From positions 1 through 20,778 of IMG/VR virus record IMGVR_UViG_3300048927_000359: 20,778 nt of DNA; one strand, 5' to 3'. Below, piece by piece: positions 5,396 through 13,569 of this stretch. The notes beneath the pieces were generated by a model. It had not been told where the DNA came from. It made no database searches and was given only the letters and a program-made list of their open reading frames with translations. This DNA comes from a virus. A program made the position numbers and the translations under genes. Within the stretch, counting starts at the first letter, position 1. The number at the start of each line of letters is the position of its first letter.

Positions 5396-8300
5396 TTACC
5401 TTGCGTTGAGCGCTGTGCGCATTGCCGAACTGCTGCTGGTGCGTACGCCCGTGGTGGTGACCGACAGCAGGTCCCGAATCAGCTGGTTCTGTTCTGCCAG
5501 CAGGGCGTTGCTCTGCTGCAGCGCTGCGTTGGTTTCGGCCTGGCCCTTCCCCTCGACCACCAGGTCGAACACTGCCCGGCTGAAGTTGTCCGGCAGCGCC
5601 TCGATGGCGTCGGCCAGCTGGCCCATGCTGGTGCCGTCCTCGGTGTCGAGGTTGCCGACCTTCATGCTGTCGATCAGGCCGGTCACCTGGCCATACAGGC
5701 CGCTGTAGTCCTGCCCGCTGGCGTAGAGGTTCCGACCAAAGCCCAGCGCCGCCTGTGCGGCCGCCTGCGCGGCGCTGGTGTCACCACCGGCCACCGCACG
5801 CTCCAGCTCCTGCATCGTCTTCTGGAGCTTCTCCTGGTCGGTCAGCGGCGACAGGTCGCTGGTGTCCAACCCGTACCGCATCGCCTTCTTGTCGGCGTCG
5901 ATCTGGGCCTGGAGCTTGCCCATGTTCGTCGCGCGCAACGCCTCGATCTTGGCCAGGTCCTCGGCGCGGGCACCGGACAGGCCCAGCGCCTTGGCGTAGT
6001 CGTTGGCCGCCTTCACCTGCTGGCGGTACGTGCGTTCAATCGTGAGCGCCTGCGACTGGTACTGGGTCAGGTCGCCGGTGAGCAGCTGGGTGCTTATGTC
6101 AGCCATCAGGCTGGCGTAGTTGCCCAGCAGGCCGCTCACCTTCTCGATCTGGGTGGCCAGGTCCGTGCCGGCCACGCTGGCCAGGTCCTGGAAGTAGTCC
6201 ACCGCCTTGTTGACCTTCTCGATCTCCATCGAATTCAGCGCGCGGCCGAGCTGGTCGGCGTTGCCCACCGCCAGCGCGATGGACGCACTGAGCGCGGAGA
6301 AGACGTCGGACGCCTCGAAGTACCCATCCAGCTGGCCACCAAACCCGGCCGCCTTCACCGCCTCGGTGAACAGCCTGTCGGTCATGTCGCCCAGATAGGC
6401 CTCCAGCTGCGACTTCGCCTCGGCCGAATCGGCCGACAGCTGCAGCTTGCCCAGCGACACCTTCACCCCGGCCAGCTGCCCCGACAGGTCGACGCCCAGC
6501 TGTTTGGCCAAGTCCGTCGTGGCGCCGCGCACCTGGCGCGCGGCCATGTCGAAGGTGCGGTCGATGCCCGGGTCAAGTGAACCGTACTGCGTCCACTTCT
6601 TGTCGCTGCGGAACATGCCTCCCTTGGCCTTGATATCCGCGTAGGACTGGCCGTCGAACCCACCGAAGCCGTAACTGCCGGTGAGCCCCTGCCCCGTCAC
6701 CTTGGGCGCGCTGCGGCCGAACAGCTTGGCGTGGATGCTGGACCCGGACAGGATCGATGCGGTCTTGTCGTTGAAGCCCAGCCCACGGAACCCCTTGTCC
6801 GCAAGGCCCACCGCACCGGCGGTGGCGATCTTGCCGGCCCAGCTTTCGCCGTTGGCAATATCCCAGCCTTGGTCGAACAGCTCGGCGTTCTTCATCATGC
6901 CGGCGACGATCCACCCGATGATGGGGACGGCGGCCGCGGCGGTAGAACCCGCTGCCCCTGCGCCGGCAGCTGCAGAGCCGCCGGCCGCGCTGGCGCCCCC
7001 GCCGGCAAAGGTGGCGATGTTGTTGCCGAACCCCATCAGGTTGCCGGCGCCCGCACCGCTGCTGGCGGCACCCGCACCGAACAGCCCCTGCCCTTTGGCC
7101 AGTAGGCCGGCGATGTTGCCCACGTTCTGCCCGCCAGCGGCAGAGCCGTTGCCGCCGAACAGCCCCATCAGGCTATCCATGCTGAAGCCGCCGCCTTGGC
7201 TGCCCCAGTTGCTGATGCCGTCCATGATCCTGGTCTGGATCGGGATCACCAGTTTCTGCTGCAGCAGCTCCCGGGCAAGGTCGCGCAACCCCTGCTTTGC
7301 CGTGTCCTTCAGGTCATCCCACAGACCGTTGAAGTCACGCAAGCCACTGGCCACGAAGTCGGCCATGGCGTCAGCGGCGCCATCCACGCCATGCAACACG
7401 ACGTTCGCCCAGGCTTCGACGTTGGCGGCCGCTTCTTCTACCTGAAGAGACAGGGACGCCGCCGCATCGGCGGCGTCCAGCATCGACCGTTCGTACTGCT
7501 CGTAGCTGCCCGCCCCCTTGGCCAGCGCCAGTGCTTGCTTGCTGCCGGCGGCCTCGACTGCCTTCTGCAGCTCTTCGCGCATGTCGCGCTCGTTCATCAG
7601 CTGCCGGCGGTACAGCTCGCGTGCGCGCCCGACCTTGCCGAGCATCACCAGCTCACCGTCCATGGCGGCAATCAGCGCCTCGGGAGCGCCCATCGCCTTC
7701 TCGACCTGAGTGGCAAGCTTGGCGTACTCCATGGCACTCTGGGCCATCAGTACATTGGCGTCGGCCTGGGCGACAGCCCCCTTCTCCAATAGCTCGTTGT
7801 ACTGAGCCATGTTGTTGAGATGCTTCGCCATGGCCTCAGCGAGCGGACCATTCATCGCGCCAGCAGCTTCCTCTGCCTGTTGCTGATAGCGCTTGATCGA
7901 CTCAGCATCGGCCTTGCGATCCTTCGCGCCGGCACGCTCAGCTGCGGAGGCAGCCGTACGTGATTCAGTGAAATTCTTCTGCGCGGCAGCCAGCTCGGTC
8001 TGCAGCCGGATGTACTGGGCGCCCTGCTCGATGTATTGCTTGACCTTCGGGTCGTCGCGCTTGGAGAAGTCGAGGCCACCGGCCTGCGCCTCCTTGAACC
8101 AATCGGCCACATCCAGCTTGGCGACGTCCGCCGCACCCTTGCCGACGCGCGCGAGCTGCCCCGGCAGCGATTGCATCGCCGAAGCGATGCGCTTGCCTGC
8201 TGCGCCGGCCGAATCGCCCAGCGCATTGAACGAACCCGACAGTGCGTCGGTTGCGCTCTTCGCCTGGGTGCTACTCCCGGTAAATGCCTCGAGGATCGAC

Positions 8301-9973
8301 CTCTTTCGGTCGACCTCCCGGCCAGCGGTAGCAGCCGCAGCCGTTTCTTCCGTCAGGCTCTTCGCGACGGCGGCAGCGGCCGGGGAACCTTCAATCATGG
8401 CCCGCCAAGCAGCCTCAAGGCCGGTGGCGAACTCGTCCGCCGTGACTTTCCCTGCCTTGAATGCGGCATCGAGCCGTTCAGTTTCCTTGATGAAGGCCGA
8501 CGCCTGACCGACGTTGGAGAAGTTGCTGGCGGCTGCCACCATCTCGCCAATCGAGCCGGTGATCGTCTTGTAGTTAGCGTCGATTTCCTTCTGCAGGCGC
8601 AGGATCTCGCCGGACTGCTGCTGACGGTTCAGCTCGCGGAACTTCGAGATGGCTGCGTCCGCTGCGCCACCGAAGTCGATCAGCGCGCTTGCGGCTGTAT
8701 TGGTGTTGTCGCGGAACAGCAGCCAACCGGCCGCCGCGGTGGCCAACATGGTGATGATGCCAGCCGGGCCGCCCAGCATCGCCAGGGTTGATGCCCCTGC
8801 TCGGGCCATCCAGCTCGCGTTCGCCGCTGTTGCCTGGGCCTGCGCCTGGGCGAGGAGCAACGTTGCTTGGCGATGTTCCAACGTGGCAGCCGCTGCTTTC
8901 GCGCTGACCGAGACACTGCCGCCGATGGTCGCGGATCGACGCACCTCGGCCTGCGTATCGAGCACCGCCGCGCGTGTGCGCAGCTCCAACTGCTGTGCTG
9001 CAGCGAGGTTCTGCGCAGCAGCAGCCTTGTCTGCGGTGATTCCGGCATTGGCTGCGGCGACCCTCGCGAGCAAAGCCTTGGTCAACGGCCCTGCGGCGAC
9101 GGCGGCGCCGGCGACGGCAACGGTCTGCAAGTTGCTTCCGAGCACCGCAATTCCCGCTGCGAGCACCTGCGATGCGCCGGTGGCCTCATCAGCGCGGCCA
9201 ATCATGACTTGCAGGTTGTTGTTGAACAGGGTCGTGGCCTGGCCGACCGTTGCGCTCATTTTCCCGAAGGAATCGTCGACGGCGGCGGCCTGGCTTTGAA
9301 GCGCACCGATAACGTCCTTGGCAGTCAGCTTGCCTGCAGCCCCCAGTTCCCTGAGCTTGCCAATCGGTACGTTCAGGCCCTTCGCGATGGCCTGTGCAAG
9401 CGCTGGAGCCTGCTCCATCACGGAGTTCAGCTCTTCGCCTCGGAGGGTGCCAGAGGCAAAGGCTTGGCCGAGCTGCACCAACGCCGCATCGGCTCCGGCC
9501 GCAGTGGTCCCGCTGATCACCATCGTTTTGCTAATGGTCTCGACGACTCGGGCGAGATCAGCGCCGGACAGCTTCAGCACCTCTTGGTTCATGGCGATTC
9601 GCTGGTACAACTCGGCCGTCGCTCCGAGCGGCTGCCGGGCCGCAGCCGCGATACGGACAACCTCTGCCTGTGCAGCCGCGAACTCCGCTTGCCCCGCAGT
9701 CACGAGCCGAAGGCGGTTGTTCAGATTCGTCCACTCATCAGCCTTTCCGATTACAGCTTTTGCAGCCGCGAGCGCGGACGTGAGTCCGATAGCTTCGACA
9801 GCTACTCGGCGGAAGCCCTGAGCCACTTCATCAGCGCCGCGCCGCGCTGCAACCGACATAGACGCCTGGATGCTGGCCATATCACGTTGGACCACACGCG
9901 CCGCCTTGCCGGAATCTCGCTCGAAGGCCCCCGTTTTCAGCAAAAGATCGACGGTAAGGGTGTAGAGGCTCAT
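5396..9973 (-). CDS. Tail tape measure protein
   Basis: This 1525-aa protein runs inside the tail tube, fixes its length, and takes part in DNA passage at infection. The N-terminal 75-260 region matches the tape measure domain TIGR02675 (KADEWTNLNNRLRLVT, LYQRIAMNQEVL, LGQAFASGTLRGEELNSVMEQAPALAQAIA, TTLFNNNLQVMIGR). A hydrophobic segment lies at about 388-420 (ML-GGPAG-ITMLATAAAGWLLF), long Ala-rich coiled coil in the middle, a Gly/Ala/Ser-rich low-complexity stretch at about 910-1030, and more helices to the end. At roughly 0.15 nm per residue the tail would be about 230 nm, long for a lambda-type phage. The start has GGAG 8 nt upstream, placed directly behind a terminator T-run. The chaperone genes G/GT sit several genes upstream rather than next to it. 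Confidence 0.93.
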   Translation of the reverse strand: MSLYTLTVDLLLKTGAFERDSGKAARVVQRDMASIQASMSVAARRGADEVAQGFRRVAVEAIGLTSALAAAKAVIGKADEWTNLNNRLRLVTAGQAEFAAAQAEVVRIAAAARQPLGATAELYQRIAMNQEVLKLSGADLARVVETISKTMVISGTTAAGADAALVQLGQAFASGTLRGEELNSVMEQAPALAQAIAKGLNVPIGKLRELGAAGKLTAKDVIGALQSQAAAVDDSFGKMSATVGQATTLFNNNLQVMIGRADEATGASQVLAAGIAVLGSNLQTVAVAGAAVAAGPLTKALLARVAAANAGITADKAAAAQNLAAAQQLELRTRAAVLDTQAEVRRSATIGGSVSVSAKAAAATLEHRQATLLLAQAQAQATAANASWMARAGASTLAMLGGPAGIITMLATAAAGWLLFRDNTNTAASALIDFGGAADAAISKFRELNRQQQSGEILRLQKEIDANYKTITGSIGEMVAAASNFSNVGQASAFIKETERLDAAFKAGKVTADEFATGLEAAWRAMIEGSPAAAAVAKSLTEETAAAATAGREVDRKRSILEAFTGSSTQAKSATDALSGSFNALGDSAGAAGKRIASAMQSLPGQLARVGKGAADVAKLDVADWFKEAQAGGLDFSKRDDPKVKQYIEQGAQYIRLQTELAAAQKNFTESRTAASAAERAGAKDRKADAESIKRYQQQAEEAAGAMNGPLAEAMAKHLNNMAQYNELLEKGAVAQADANVLMAQSAMEYAKLATQVEKAMGAPEALIAAMDGELVMLGKVGRARELYRRQLMNERDMREELQKAVEAAGSKQALALAKGAGSYEQYERSMLDAADAAASLSLQVEEAAANVEAWANVVLHGVDGAADAMADFVASGLRDFNGLWDDLKDTAKQGLRDLARELLQQKLVIPIQTRIMDGISNWGSQGGGFSMDSLMGLFGGNGSAAGGQNVGNIAGLLAKGQGLFGAGAASSGAGAGNLMGFGNNIATFAGGGASAAGGSAAAGAGAAGSTAAAAVPIIGWIVAGMMKNAELFDQGWDIANGESWAGKIATAGAVGLADKGFRGLGFNDKTASILSGSSIHAKLFGRSAPKVTGQGLTGSYGFGGFDGQSYADIKAKGGMFRSDKKWTQYGSLDPGIDRTFDMAARQVRGATTDLAKQLGVDLSGQLAGVKVSLGKLQLSADSAEAKSQLEAYLGDMTDRLFTEAVKAAGFGGQLDGYFEASDVFSALSASIALAVGNADQLGRALNSMEIEKVNKAVDYFQDLASVAGTDLATQIEKVSGLLGNYASLMADISTQLLTGDLTQYQSQALTIERTYRQQVKAANDYAKALGLSGARAEDLAKIEALRATNMGKLQAQIDADKKAMRYGLDTSDLSPLTDQEKLQKTMQELERAVAGGDTSAAQAAAQAALGFGRNLYASGQDYSGLYGQVTGLIDSMKVGNLDTEDGTSMGQLADAIEALPDNFSRAVFDLVVEGKGQAETNAALQQSNALLAEQNQLIRDLLSVTTTGVRTSSSSAMRTALNAR

Positions 9974-9982
9974 GGATACTCC

Positions 9983-10012
9983 AAAAAAAAGGCCCGCATA
10001 AAGCGGGCCTTT
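9983..10012 (-). terminator. Rho-independent terminator directly before the tape measure gene
   Basis: On the minus strand AAAGGCCCGC and GCGGGCCTTT form a 10-bp stem (10012-10003 with 9997-9988) with loop TTTAT, followed by a run of eight T (9990-9983, which overlaps the last stem bases). The T-run is followed at once by GGAG, the ribosome site of the tape measure gene. It would end transcription from the membrane-protein gene and block the distal tail genes unless it is read through. The 68 bp between this hairpin and the stop of the membrane-protein gene contain no convincing promoter (TTGAGG with TAATAG at 15 bp is the best, and is poor). Confidence 0.85.
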
Positions 10013-10080
10013 GGATCTACTTTGCTATTAGGAAGCAGATGCCACCCTCAAGCTTCTTTTCGACGAATCACATCGCACGA

Positions 10081-10800
10081 TCAATGACAAACATCCCATA
10101 TGTACTGAGACAGCCATAGAAGGAACGCAACGCTAGCCTGCCACAAAGCCCAGCAGAAAATGCCCTCATTAATGGCGAATCCGCCCGAAGCGAGTAGCGC
10201 CACGTAGCCCTGCACGAGTCCATCCAAAGCGAACGGAAGGGTGAGTAAAGAGCTGAACGTTATGACAACTACAAGCAGAACCAATGCGCCTCCAGTGAGT
10301 AGCACACTTCCCCATCCTGCATTGGAACTCCAAGGCTCATGCAGCTTCACGATCATTCTAGAGAGCCAAAGCGCGAAGACTAAAAAGACACCCGGCACAA
10401 CAATTTGGACTGACGCCACGATGCCCCCCGCGCTCTCAAGAATGGGTTTAAACGTCACGACCCCCACTGCGACTAGGGCTACCGCATACTCGCCGCATAG
10501 CCGAAATGTGGGTAGAAACCACTTTTTGGCTCTGGTTCTGCGATCGAGCTTGTGGTTGAACAACAGAGAAAAGAGGCTGATCGCAGTTGCAAGGCTTAGA
10601 AAGATCAACGAGAGCAACAAGAGAGGAAATGATGAGAGTCCTGACACTGCCCCCTCCCCCAAGTTCTGATGTCCCGTATTGAAGAAGAAAACACCAATTG
10701 TGCAAACCGTCATGATCAAGCTTCCGAGCCATGGCAGTTTCCAATCGAATACCAGGTCTAATGTACGCAGCGGCACCTCAGGACCAACCGGGTCACTCAT
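10081..10800 (-). CDS. Multi-pass membrane protein, probable moron inserted in the tail operon
   Basis: This 239-aa protein has five to seven predicted membrane segments, at about 22-41, 57-82, 103-120, 127-150, 163-187 and 213-234, with a possible one at 193-211. A basic loop follows the second (NHKLDRRTRAKK, 82-93). I recognise no family. GC is about 45-52% in two 60-base lines I counted (27/60 at 10561-10620, 31/60 at 10261-10320), against 46/60 in a line of the neighbouring gene (11041-11100). The start has AGGG 7 nt upstream. The gene lies between tail genes and is followed by a strong terminator, the layout described for phage morons. It does not look like a tail component; an inner-membrane role such as superinfection exclusion, defence or a fitness function is plausible but unproven. 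A holin is less likely, given the length, the number of segments and the position. Confidence 0.75.
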   Translation of the reverse strand: MSDPVGPEVPLRTLDLVFDWKLPWLGSLIMTVCTIGVFFFNTGHQNLGEGAVSGLSSFPLLLLSLIFLSLATAISLFSLLFNHKLDRRTRAKKWFLPTFRLCGEYAVALVAVGVVTFKPILESAGGIVASVQIVVPGVFLVFALWLSRMIVKLHEPWSSNAGWGSVLLTGGALVLLVVVITFSSLLTLPFALDGLVQGYVALLASGGFAINEGIFCWALWQASVAFLLWLSQYIWDVCH

Positions 10801-10828
10801 CTCTTTTCCCTAGCGTAGTGGTTGGTGA

Positions 10829-10858
10829 TCATCATGACCTATCCAGGAATCTCTTCAA
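10829..10858 (-). promoter_or_regulatory. Weak candidate promoter for the membrane-protein gene
   Basis: On the minus strand TTGAAG (10858-10853) and TGATGA (10834-10829) are separated by 18 bp and lie about 28 bp before the ATG, overlapping the end of the preceding gene. The -35 box is fair and the -10 box poor. I list it because a moron would be expected to carry its own promoter; the gene could equally be read from the tail operon. Confidence 0.2.
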
Positions 10859-11597
10859 ACTCCAGGGTGCCTCGAAAGTACTGCCTGCTGATGTTCTCCA
10901 CCGTGGGCAATTGGGTGGCGTAGCCATACAGCGCGGTGCGCGCGGCCAGCACGGGGTCGAATGCCTTGGTCATCATGTCCCGGTACTGCGGCACCACGCA
11001 GCCACGCCGGCGGCCGGAGAGTGCGACCCCCACCGTCTCCCAGTCGGTGCCGGCCAATCCCCCCTTGCGGGCCACCTCGGTCGGCCGCCCGCTGAGCGTG
11101 GCGGTCAGCTTCCGATATGTCGGGCCCGGCACCGTGTTGACCTGGCTGCCTTTGGTTCTGTTGTGCAGGCTGCTGTCGAAGCGTGCCACCGCCCAACCGT
11201 CGGTGATCCCCACTTCCACCGCGCTGAACACTGCGATCTCGCCCACCTCCACGTTGGTCACGACGGTGGCGATGGTGACCGCCACGGCGCTGACCAGCGC
11301 ATTGCCCGTGGGGAACAGCCAGGCGCACACGCTGCCGTCAGGCAGCCGAATGGTCGTGGCGCTGGCGCCGGCGGCCGTCACCAGTACGCCCGGCGGCACG
11401 TTCAGCCCCAGGACCGCAATGATGCCCGGCACAATGGCCTCGGCCAGGGTGATGTTGATGGCCAGCGCTCCGGTTCGCGTGATGCGTGCCCGACGCGCCG
11501 GCCGGCCATCGAACAGCGCGGCGCCCCCATCGTCGGTGAGCCAGGCGCCGCCGACCAGGGCGACCGACGCCGGTGGAATTCCATAACCAATCAGCAC
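10839..11597 (-). CDS. Unrecognised 252-aa tail-region protein
   Basis: I recognise no family. The protein is rich in Ala, Val and Thr, appears beta-rich, and ends in an aromatic, acidic stretch (NISRQYFRGTLEFEEIPG). A basic segment GRRRGCVVPQYR lies at about 200-212. There is no signal peptide, and the hydrophobic runs (for example GIIAVLGLNVPPGVLVTAAGA) are broken by Pro and Gly and do not look like membrane helices. The GTG start at 11597 lies 5 bp after the stop of the 655-aa gene and has GGGGTG just before it. No in-frame ATG gives a better start. Tight coupling to the 655-aa gene and matching high GC argue that both serve the same tail structure, perhaps the tip or baseplate. Confidence 0.6.
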   Translation of the reverse strand: MLIGYGIPPASVALVGGAWLTDDGGAALFDGRPARRARITRTGALAINITLAEAIVPGIIAVLGLNVPPGVLVTAAGASATTIRLPDGSVCAWLFPTGNALVSAVAVTIATVVTNVEVGEIAVFSAVEVGITDGWAVARFDSSLHNRTKGSQVNTVPGPTYRKLTATLSGRPTEVARKGGLAGTDWETVGVALSGRRRGCVVPQYRDMMTKAFDPVLAARTALYGYATQLPTVENISRQYFRGTLEFEEIPG

Positions 11598-11601
11598 CGC
11601 A

Positions 11602-13569
11602 TCACCCCCACACCGTCAGCACCACGTCCCCCGTGGCAGGGTTGCGCTCGACGCGCCGGACCAGCACCGGCTTGCCGTCTTGCAGGTCATATCGCTTGTA
11701 CGTCAGCCGGCCTACCTGACCCGGCTGCGGCGCCAGGTCCTGGTCGCCGCGAATGCTGACGCGATAGAAGAACCGCTGCGTGCGGTAGATCGACACGACG
11801 CGCTCTATTTCCGCCTGGGCATCCCCGGCATCCCAGAACAGAGAGATCACCGGATCGGCCGAATCGGCCCTCCGGTAGTGCGGGTGCAGCGGCGCACCGC
11901 CGTACACCTGAGCGCGGAACAGCCCGGACAGCTCGTCGCGGCGCGCCTGCGGCACGTCCACCACGTCGGTGATCATGTCCGACGCGGCCAGCGCCTGCGC
12001 GTTGGGCCGGTAGGACATGCGGCGCGTCAGGTTCGGGGCATCGTCGGGCACCGCCAGAAGATCCTCGGCCAGGTCGTCCCCGCTCAGGTTGAACGCGGGC
12101 GGGCCGTCGAGCGTCTCGGGCGCGACGACGCGGGTGAACCGCAGGACCCCGTTCGGGTCCTGGTAGCACCCCACGCCATAGCTGGGCAGCATGGCGTTCA
12201 TGGCGTCGCGCCCGGTCACCGCGTTACCGGCGTAGTAGCCGATGCCGGCATAGCCTGTGGCCGCGTCAATGGCCGAGCAATCGGCCGCCGACCATGCGGC
12301 CTTGCCCAAGCGCCCCATCAGGTCCGCCATCGCCTGCCGCAGCTTGGCGGGCTGCTGGCCGGGCCCGACGCTCGACACATCGGCCACCACCGGCGTGACC
12401 GGCGGCGACTTCATCAGCAGCTGCTGGCCATCGGGCGACACCGTGAACGTGCCGGGCTCCATCAGGTCGGCGCGGTCCATGACGGCATCGGCGTAGATAG
12501 GGCCGTCGGCCACGAACATGGCCGTCGCATCCGAATTGGCACCCATGGCCGGCACGCTCGCCACTGCGCCGATCACCGCCGGCTGCGGCTTCCACGCCAG
12601 CGCGGGGATGTTGGGAAGGAACACGCCGCGATTGATGGTGGCATCCAGGTCGTCGTGGGCGTCCCGGAAATGGAAGGTCTTGCTGCCGTCGTCATTGATC
12701 TCGATCCGGTCCACCGTGAACCGGAACACGTCGGCAGCATCGGCCAGCATCCCGCCGAGCGCGCCGGCGCGGATCTGCACAGGCAGCCCGGCGCCGCCGC
12801 TGAGCGCCAGGTCATCCAGCAGCCCATCGGCATCCAGCACGACGCACTCGGACGCGCTGGTTTGGCTCACAGGGTCACCGCCCCAGGGCCAGAAGTTGAT
12901 CTCGCTGATAAGGCTCAAGCCATCGGCGAGCAACCCCTCGTAGCGGGCGTTGGCCGGGCTGTCACCGGGCGCGGTGAGCCAGTCCATGTCAGCCAAGCGG
13001 GTGATGCCCGACGCGGCGCCAGGGAGCCGCCAGCCCGCTTCTGCGGCGGCGCTGCGCGCTGCCCACTGGCCGGCGTTCACCGCCATGCACAGCCCATCTG
13101 CCTTGGTGGCGGAGAGCGTCCCGGCGAAGTGCAGTGGACCAGCCAGGTTGATCTCGCGCTGGTGCACCTGCGTGCCGTTGAGGTACAGCTGCAGCACGGT
13201 GGGGCTGCCGAAGGTCAGGCGCAGTCCCACCATGTCACCGTGCTTCGCCGACGGCAGCCCGCTGGCGATCGCGCCGTTGCCCTGAAGCACCCGCCCGGTG
13301 GCCAGCTCCCAGCCAATGCCCGCAGCGCTGGCCCCCGGGTGTGCTTCCAGCGGTGCGGCCGGCGAAACAACACCGACCATGGCGGCCAGTGCGTCGTCAC
13401 CCCAGACAGCGAACTCGACGCCGGCGGTGCCAGTGCTGAGCGCGAAGTCCGAGCGTGCCATGCGGCTCAGGTCGGCAGCCGCAGTGGTGGCCAGCGTCAG
13501 CCCGCCATCGCGCGCGGCCAGCAGCGGGCCGATGGGTTGCGCCGCAAAGCGCCCAAAAGTTTCAGCCAT
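11602..13569 (-). CDS. Large tail protein: SPRY-like N-terminus fused to a tail-hub-like C-terminus
   Basis: This 655-aa protein has two parts. Residues of about 40-172 resemble a SPRY/concanavalin-like fold: VEFAVWG, GIGWELATGRVLQG, GDMVGLRLTF, VLQLYLNGTQVHQ, and a closing MAVNAGQW. Residues of about 195-655 look like a hub-type tail protein: LPVQIRAGALGGML, a FRDAHDDLDATINRG segment, AWKPQPAVIGAV, a DGPIYADAVMDR segment, YYAGNAVTGRDAMNAMLPSYGVGCY, and a C-terminal GQVGRLTYKRY...NPATGDVVLTVWG that ends exactly at the stop. The start follows the GT frame by 3 bp with GGGA 8 nt before the ATG. It sits before the tape measure gene, whereas hub proteins of siphophages are usually encoded after it. 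The domain assignments come from pattern memory; the tail role is firm by context, the exact role is not. Confidence 0.65.
   Translation of the reverse strand: MAETFGRFAAQPIGPLLAARDGGLTLATTAAADLSRMARSDFALSTGTAGVEFAVWGDDALAAMVGVVSPAAPLEAHPGASAAGIGWELATGRVLQGNGAIASGLPSAKHGDMVGLRLTFGSPTVLQLYLNGTQVHQREINLAGPLHFAGTLSATKADGLCMAVNAGQWAARSAAAEAGWRLPGAASGITRLADMDWLTAPGDSPANARYEGLLADGLSLISEINFWPWGGDPVSQTSASECVVLDADGLLDDLALSGGAGLPVQIRAGALGGMLADAADVFRFTVDRIEINDDGSKTFHFRDAHDDLDATINRGVFLPNIPALAWKPQPAVIGAVASVPAMGANSDATAMFVADGPIYADAVMDRADLMEPGTFTVSPDGQQLLMKSPPVTPVVADVSSVGPGQQPAKLRQAMADLMGRLGKAAWSAADCSAIDAATGYAGIGYYAGNAVTGRDAMNAMLPSYGVGCYQDPNGVLRFTRVVAPETLDGPPAFNLSGDDLAEDLLAVPDDAPNLTRRMSYRPNAQALAASDMITDVVDVPQARRDELSGLFRAQVYGGAPLHPHYRRADSADPVISLFWDAGDAQAEIERVVSIYRTQRFFYRVSIRGDQDLAPQPGQVGRLTYKRYDLQDGKPVLVRRVERNPATGDVVLTVWG

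Follow-up and report, generated by a model that had tools for sequence, protein, structure and literature searches.

A predicted membrane-protein gene carried as exchangeable cargo next to the tape measure gene of Stenotrophomonas-type siphoviruses, with a probable role in superinfection exclusion

What does a gene for a predicted polytopic membrane protein do inside a tail operon, immediately ahead of the gene for the tail tape measure protein (TMP)? The question is raised by a 20,778-base IMG/VR virus fragment (IMGVR_UViG_3300048927_000359; this whole stretch is hereafter the window), in which the head and tail genes are read in order on the minus strand and an open reading frame (ORF) of 239 amino acids (aa) lies between a conserved gene, gp252, and the TMP gene. 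An earlier note, made from the sequence alone, had taken this ORF for cargo rather than a tail part, possibly a superinfection exclusion or defence protein. Comparison with related phages indicates that it is almost certainly exchangeable cargo. We interpret it as an exchangeable, lysogen-expressed envelope moron in the gp252-TMP slot of Stenotrophomonas siphoviruses, probably acting in superinfection exclusion, and assign this reading a rough probability of 0.55. The features that define the slot are as follows:

10081-10800, minus strand: cargo gene for the 239-aa polytopic membrane protein, ATG start, 5-7 predicted membrane segments
10839-11597, minus strand: gp252, conserved upstream neighbour without a family, left anchor of the slot
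5396-9973, minus strand: TMP, 1525 aa (PF20155, 4e-58), directly downstream of the 239-aa ORF
9974-10838, minus strand: the slot, from the gp252 stop codon to the TMP start codon

Using gp252, TMP and a 655-aa protein encoded upstream as queries, 80 IMG/VR loci were collected with each, and 8 further loci from named Stenotrophomonas genomes were obtained with gp252. A total of 109 distinct gp252-TMP intervals from Stenotrophomonas-type phages were extracted, including that of the window. Relatives were found in Stenotrophomonas genomes, which makes Stenotrophomonas, or a bacterium closely related to it, the most likely host. The intervals ranged from 97 to 950 bp, and six distinct ones were empty. 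The 239-aa gene was present in none of the other 108. In the closest relatives, L004 and L009 (gp252 94-95% identical, first 400 residues of TMP 98.5% identical), the slot contained an unrelated gene for a 108-aa lipoprotein, and homology between the window and its closest relative broke off at the gp252 stop codon and restarted at the TMP ATG. Near-identical TMPs (98.5-99.5%) were found beside unrelated cargo or none. The comparison shows a slot that is swapped as a unit.

The base composition of the 239-aa ORF also set it apart, with a GC content of 51.7% (57.5% at third codon positions, GC3), against 61-70% (GC3 73-90%) in the other tail and head genes measured, in agreement with the lower GC remarked on in the earlier note. 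Because the gene is absent from the other intervals and its codon composition differs, it is regarded as cargo; the pattern named beforehand as that of a standard component, in which every relative would carry the gene there and its codon use would agree, was not what comparison of the slot revealed. Two properties expected of a moron, namely absence from close relatives of a gene the phage does not need and a base composition unlike that of the flanking genes, were thus observed here. Its placement among tail genes was likewise borne out, with TMP directly downstream and, on the upstream side, the major tail protein and the tail assembly chaperone. With regard to the ORF itself, when the interval was dinucleotide-shuffled 1000 times, the longest ORF had a mean of 97 codons and a maximum of 248, so that its length is far above the shuffle average and by itself not absolutely decisive; the ORF was accepted as real because of its hydrophobic content and slot context. 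Five membrane segments were found at a Kyte-Doolittle threshold of >=1.6 and seven at >=1.4, matching the number proposed earlier. The positive charge of cytoplasmic loops is a general rule of membrane protein topology (positive-inside rule), and the Arg/Lys-rich basic loop at residues 84-93 therefore suggests that this loop is on the cytoplasmic side.

The filled slots contained at least 15 mutually unrelated cargo groups, as grouped by BLASTP. All 15 of 15 cargo families included envelope-type members, with a membrane segment, signal peptide or lipobox predicted by simple hydropathy rules, and these rules were passed by 97 of 102 forward cargoes and by the one reversed cargo. As a control, the same crude rules were applied to Pseudomonas phage Alize, where 12 of its 65 proteins passed. 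The script that chose start codons gave N-terminal hydrophobicity a small bonus, so that the signal-peptide count could be somewhat inflated, while the multi-segment and lipobox families are unaffected by it. The reversed cargo was found in L024, which forms one of the groups by itself and whose slot lacks a terminator. This slot had been counted as empty on the forward strand, a view overturned by a reverse-strand ORF of 176 aa, whose product has two membrane segments and can be likened to gp23, the 'reverse moron' of HK97. The commonest cargo, F0, occupied 34 intervals (L004:8793-9116, L009:8793-9116 and 32 more) and is a family of lipoproteins in which three cysteines are invariant, one of them that of the lipobox. 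A fairly confident model of F0 (predicted local distance difference test score, pLDDT, 80.7) gave no match at E <= 0.001 in a fold search of PDB and BFVD, and neither F0 nor F3 cargoes matched a Pfam or PHROG family. Members of F1 (L013, L014, L025, L147 and others) are 55-92 aa long with two membrane segments and a conserved pattern like MLTQ.TMGVGAIAFG.FL.ALAR..QAERHH; they are near HK97 gp15 in size and had no recognised family match.

The cargo followed the type of TMP. At a 40% threshold the TMP N-termini fell into four types; F0 (all 34 intervals) occurred with T0 only, F3 and F5 with T2 only, F7 and F8 with T1 only, and F1 mostly with T1. Among 85 dereplicated intervals, shared cargo was predicted by TMP identity with an area under the curve (AUC) of 0.88 and by gp252 identity with an AUC of 0.58; the observed TMP difference was reached in 0 of 1000 label permutations. 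This linkage could be biological, with the cargo acting on a TMP-dependent step, or mechanical; in the mechanical version, cargo and TMP would be exchanged as a block, with gp252 supplying the homology for crossing over. The linkage is breakable, as recent swaps beside near-identical TMPs indicate (window/L009, L040/L039 and L066/L054).

The slot also carries transcription signals. A terminator, the third property expected of a moron, was detected as a stem-loop with a T run, whereas upstream of the cargo gene the signals were poorer:

9988-10012, minus strand: intrinsic terminator of the slot, perfect stem and T run, ending 14 nt before the TMP start codon
10808-10811, minus strand: AGGG, a modest match to a Shine-Dalgarno site at a spacing of 7 nt from the ATG, read from the sequence
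10831-10836, minus strand: degenerate -10-like box CATGAT, some 30 nt upstream of the start codon

The terminator was the single one in a scan of 9900-11100, and the RNA fold of the terminator stretch had an energy of -26.4 kcal/mol (z -4.75). In 107 of 109 intervals a terminator was found no more than 75 nt from the TMP start, against 1 of 109 upstream of gp252 and none inside TMP. Its stem varied among phages (GGCCCGC, AGCCCGC, GCCCCGC and others) with the pairing kept. Five of the six empty slots had it by scan, and the sixth (L079) had a comparable hairpin whose T run was poorer. Hence, the strong terminator that the earlier note had placed behind the gene is real, but it is a property of the slot and not of the 239-aa gene, since it was found in nearly all intervals, empty ones included; for the same reason it was rejected as proof that the gene is a moron. 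In L017, an empty slot of a phage whose TMP is less similar, the terminator and the TMP ribosome site were nearly the same as in the window, and the terminator therefore travels with the slot contents. Because it is retained in empty slots, either transcription of TMP must pass it by antitermination or it must tune the TMP level.

In 68 of 102 filled slots, a promoter-like motif resembling an extended -10 element, TGNCANNAT, was found between the gp252 end and the cargo start, against 2.5 expected from dinucleotide shuffles. Family members are not independent, so that the safer figure is the count for cargo family representatives, 7 of 14 against 0.24 expected. The motif was present in none of the six empty slots, and the slot was enriched about 60-fold in a stricter form of it relative to the remainder of the loci. 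In the window, CATGAT stands at about the place of TGNCANNAT and is weak, without the TG. Of the compact promoter-gene-terminator layout known for phage morons, the terminator was seen here and the promoter is unconvincing; in place of the 'good ribosome site' of its own that had been described, only the modest AGGG was seen.

Taken together, the gene likely encodes an envelope protein expressed in the lysogen. From the anatomy of the slot, a slot promoter would drive the cargo in the lysogen, at a time when the late tail operon is off. The terminator would stop this transcript short of TMP, and in the lytic cycle late transcription would get past it by antitermination. The 239-aa protein would be located in the inner membrane, where it would block the TMP of an incoming siphovirus from meeting its inner-membrane partner or forming a DNA channel, as HK97 gp15 and P22 SieA supposedly do. 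Such exclusion at the DNA-entry step, to which we give an even chance, fits because the slot lies beside TMP, its cargo is all of envelope type and the cargo is tied to TMP type. As a tentative extension, possible rather than probable, the slot may be a dedicated TMP-linked entry-exclusion arsenal, in which each TMP type has its own envelope repertoire and the window protein represents a new multi-pass exclusion class; the repertoire of each type would then block siphoviruses sharing its inner-membrane entry route.

The nearest characterised parallel is HK97, in whose record gp15 ('moron product') is followed by a putative terminator and then by TMP, the same order as in the window. DNA injection is blocked by gp15, a superinfection-exclusion protein predicted to lie in the inner membrane, and hybrids of HK97 that carry the tail tube and TMP genes of HK022 escape it (PMC10883804). 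Like the gp15 gene, the window gene lies just upstream of TMP with a terminator in between, and both are late-operon genes for predicted membrane proteins. Unlike the window protein, gp15 is 62 aa long and YebO-like, with a match to PF13974 (1.2e-8), whereas no PF13974 YebO match was found in the window protein by Pfam search. By sequence the window protein is outside the gp15/YebO family; in the same place, it may work likewise. The superinfection-exclusion interpretation is strengthened by this layout together with the all-envelope cargo and the linkage to TMP type. P22 SieA, a three-segment inner-membrane protein that blocks injection of P22 DNA (PMC10883804), resembles the window protein in that the latter is polytopic and a putative prophage-encoded inner-membrane protein, but SieA is 162-164 aa long with three segments, acts on short-tailed P22-like phages and is encoded at another locus. 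The window protein had no PHROG or NCBIfam match to SieA-type families. Ltp of Streptococcus phage TP-J34 is a membrane-anchored exclusion lipoprotein with TMP as its target, and TMP changes overcome its block (PMC10883804, PMC3952083). It is a possible working model for the F0 and F3 lipoprotein cargoes in the slots of relatives, from which it differs as a lysogeny-module gene of a Gram-positive phage. In lambda-like phages, whether entry uses the inner-membrane complex ManYZ correlates with TMP clade, as does susceptibility to SNIPE, a membrane nuclease (PMC13190303).

Other readings of the same gene have to be weighed against exclusion at entry. A membrane-associated chaperone for TMP or a virion part, swapped together with TMP type, would account for the position inside the tail operon and for the correlation of cargo family with TMP type; however, with six distinct empty slots and near-identical TMPs accompanied by unrelated cargo or none, no cargo is needed for assembly, and GC and codon use are unlike those of tail genes, so that this reading is hardly credible. 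It is unlikely, to a far lesser degree, that the protein is lysogenic-conversion cargo of another kind, altering host transport, envelope stress resistance or the cell surface without excluding phages. Moron genes do alter host phenotypes beyond phage resistance (PMC6469090, PMC11846083), and the cargo families of the slot are unrelated to known exclusion proteins; against this, the slot adjoins the TMP gene, its cargo follows TMP type, and HK97 gp15, the single characterised example of such a layout, acts in exclusion. A defence acting later, either an abortive-infection membrane effector or a tail-assembly blocker triggered by the TMP of the invader, appears quite improbable. Its precedent is the moron Tab of Pseudomonas phage JBD26, which recognises TMP and blocks tail assembly (PMC10884400). 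The window protein is likewise proposed to be the product of a late-operon moron acting on the TMP of invaders, but Tab is an 83-aa protein encoded between terminase genes, has no reported membrane role and blocks tail assembly instead of entry, and the window protein matched no defence model.

Several points weigh against exclusion by a lysogen-expressed envelope protein. The 239-aa protein has no sequence similarity to known exclusion proteins or families. Its single-sequence AlphaFold model, all helix with seven long helices, is of such low confidence (pLDDT 51.6) that it is unusable, being too poor for a fold search. The promoter evidence in the window is weak, with the degenerate motif only and no sigma-70-like promoter for the gene passing the scan of 9900-11100. 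Further, the linkage to TMP may be simple joint exchange of neighbouring modules.

The absence of a recognisable family, already remarked on from the sequence, held in all searches. As had been proposed, the protein was searched with hidden Markov models, and no family was accepted in Pfam, PHROGs or NCBIfam, nor among PDB sequences; the defence profiles of PADLOC-DB 2.0.0 gave none up to E=1. A sub-threshold match to Jagunal (E 0.024) was dismissed as a hydrophobic-segment artefact. No relatives were found by tblastn against phages and plasmids, by peptide-pattern searches (which are less sensitive) in two IMG/VR scans and GTDB genomes, or in the genus to which G001, a Stenotrophomonas, belongs, for which 91 genomes were searched. 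Three matches among 395 genomes of the family of G001 (E 0.003-0.005, 23-25% identity, in 800-aa frames) were at chance level for that number of genomes. BLASTP against the other polytopic cargo (F9, L040) revealed no homology. The protein thus has no detectable relatives.

Morons and a TMP-adjacent exclusion moron are already known, as are prophage hotspots of antiviral genes (PMC9122126). No description of the Stenotrophomonas-phage slot or of a TMP-linked repertoire was found in the literature, most subscription journals being outside the search. What the comparison adds is that the arrangement seen for HK97 gp15 turns up again in another phage family, there as a slot of high turnover with 15 unrelated families, essentially all of them envelope proteins. 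Near-identical phages differing in cargo constitute a natural swap panel for testing TMP-adjacent control of siphovirus DNA entry, and the slot supplies undescribed candidates for exclusion proteins in Stenotrophomonas, a genus for which phage therapy is being explored.

With regard to the neighbourhood, the minus-strand order of the window is portal, protease, major capsid, connectors, major tail protein, tail assembly chaperone, 655-aa protein, 252-aa protein (gp252), 239-aa ORF and TMP. The tail assembly chaperone usually adjoins TMP. Here and in relatives, the conserved 252-aa (no family) and 655-aa (phrog_8917, function unknown) proteins, encoded at 10839-13569 on the minus strand, separate the chaperone genes from TMP. 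At the downstream end of the tail module, a 298-aa DUF2971 protein is encoded at 1412-2308 on the minus strand and matches the PADLOC candidate defence family PDC-S31 (2.1e-20). With a GC content of 56.6% and a GC3 of 63%, its gene was the sole other one near the 239-aa ORF in composition and is probably a second cargo gene.
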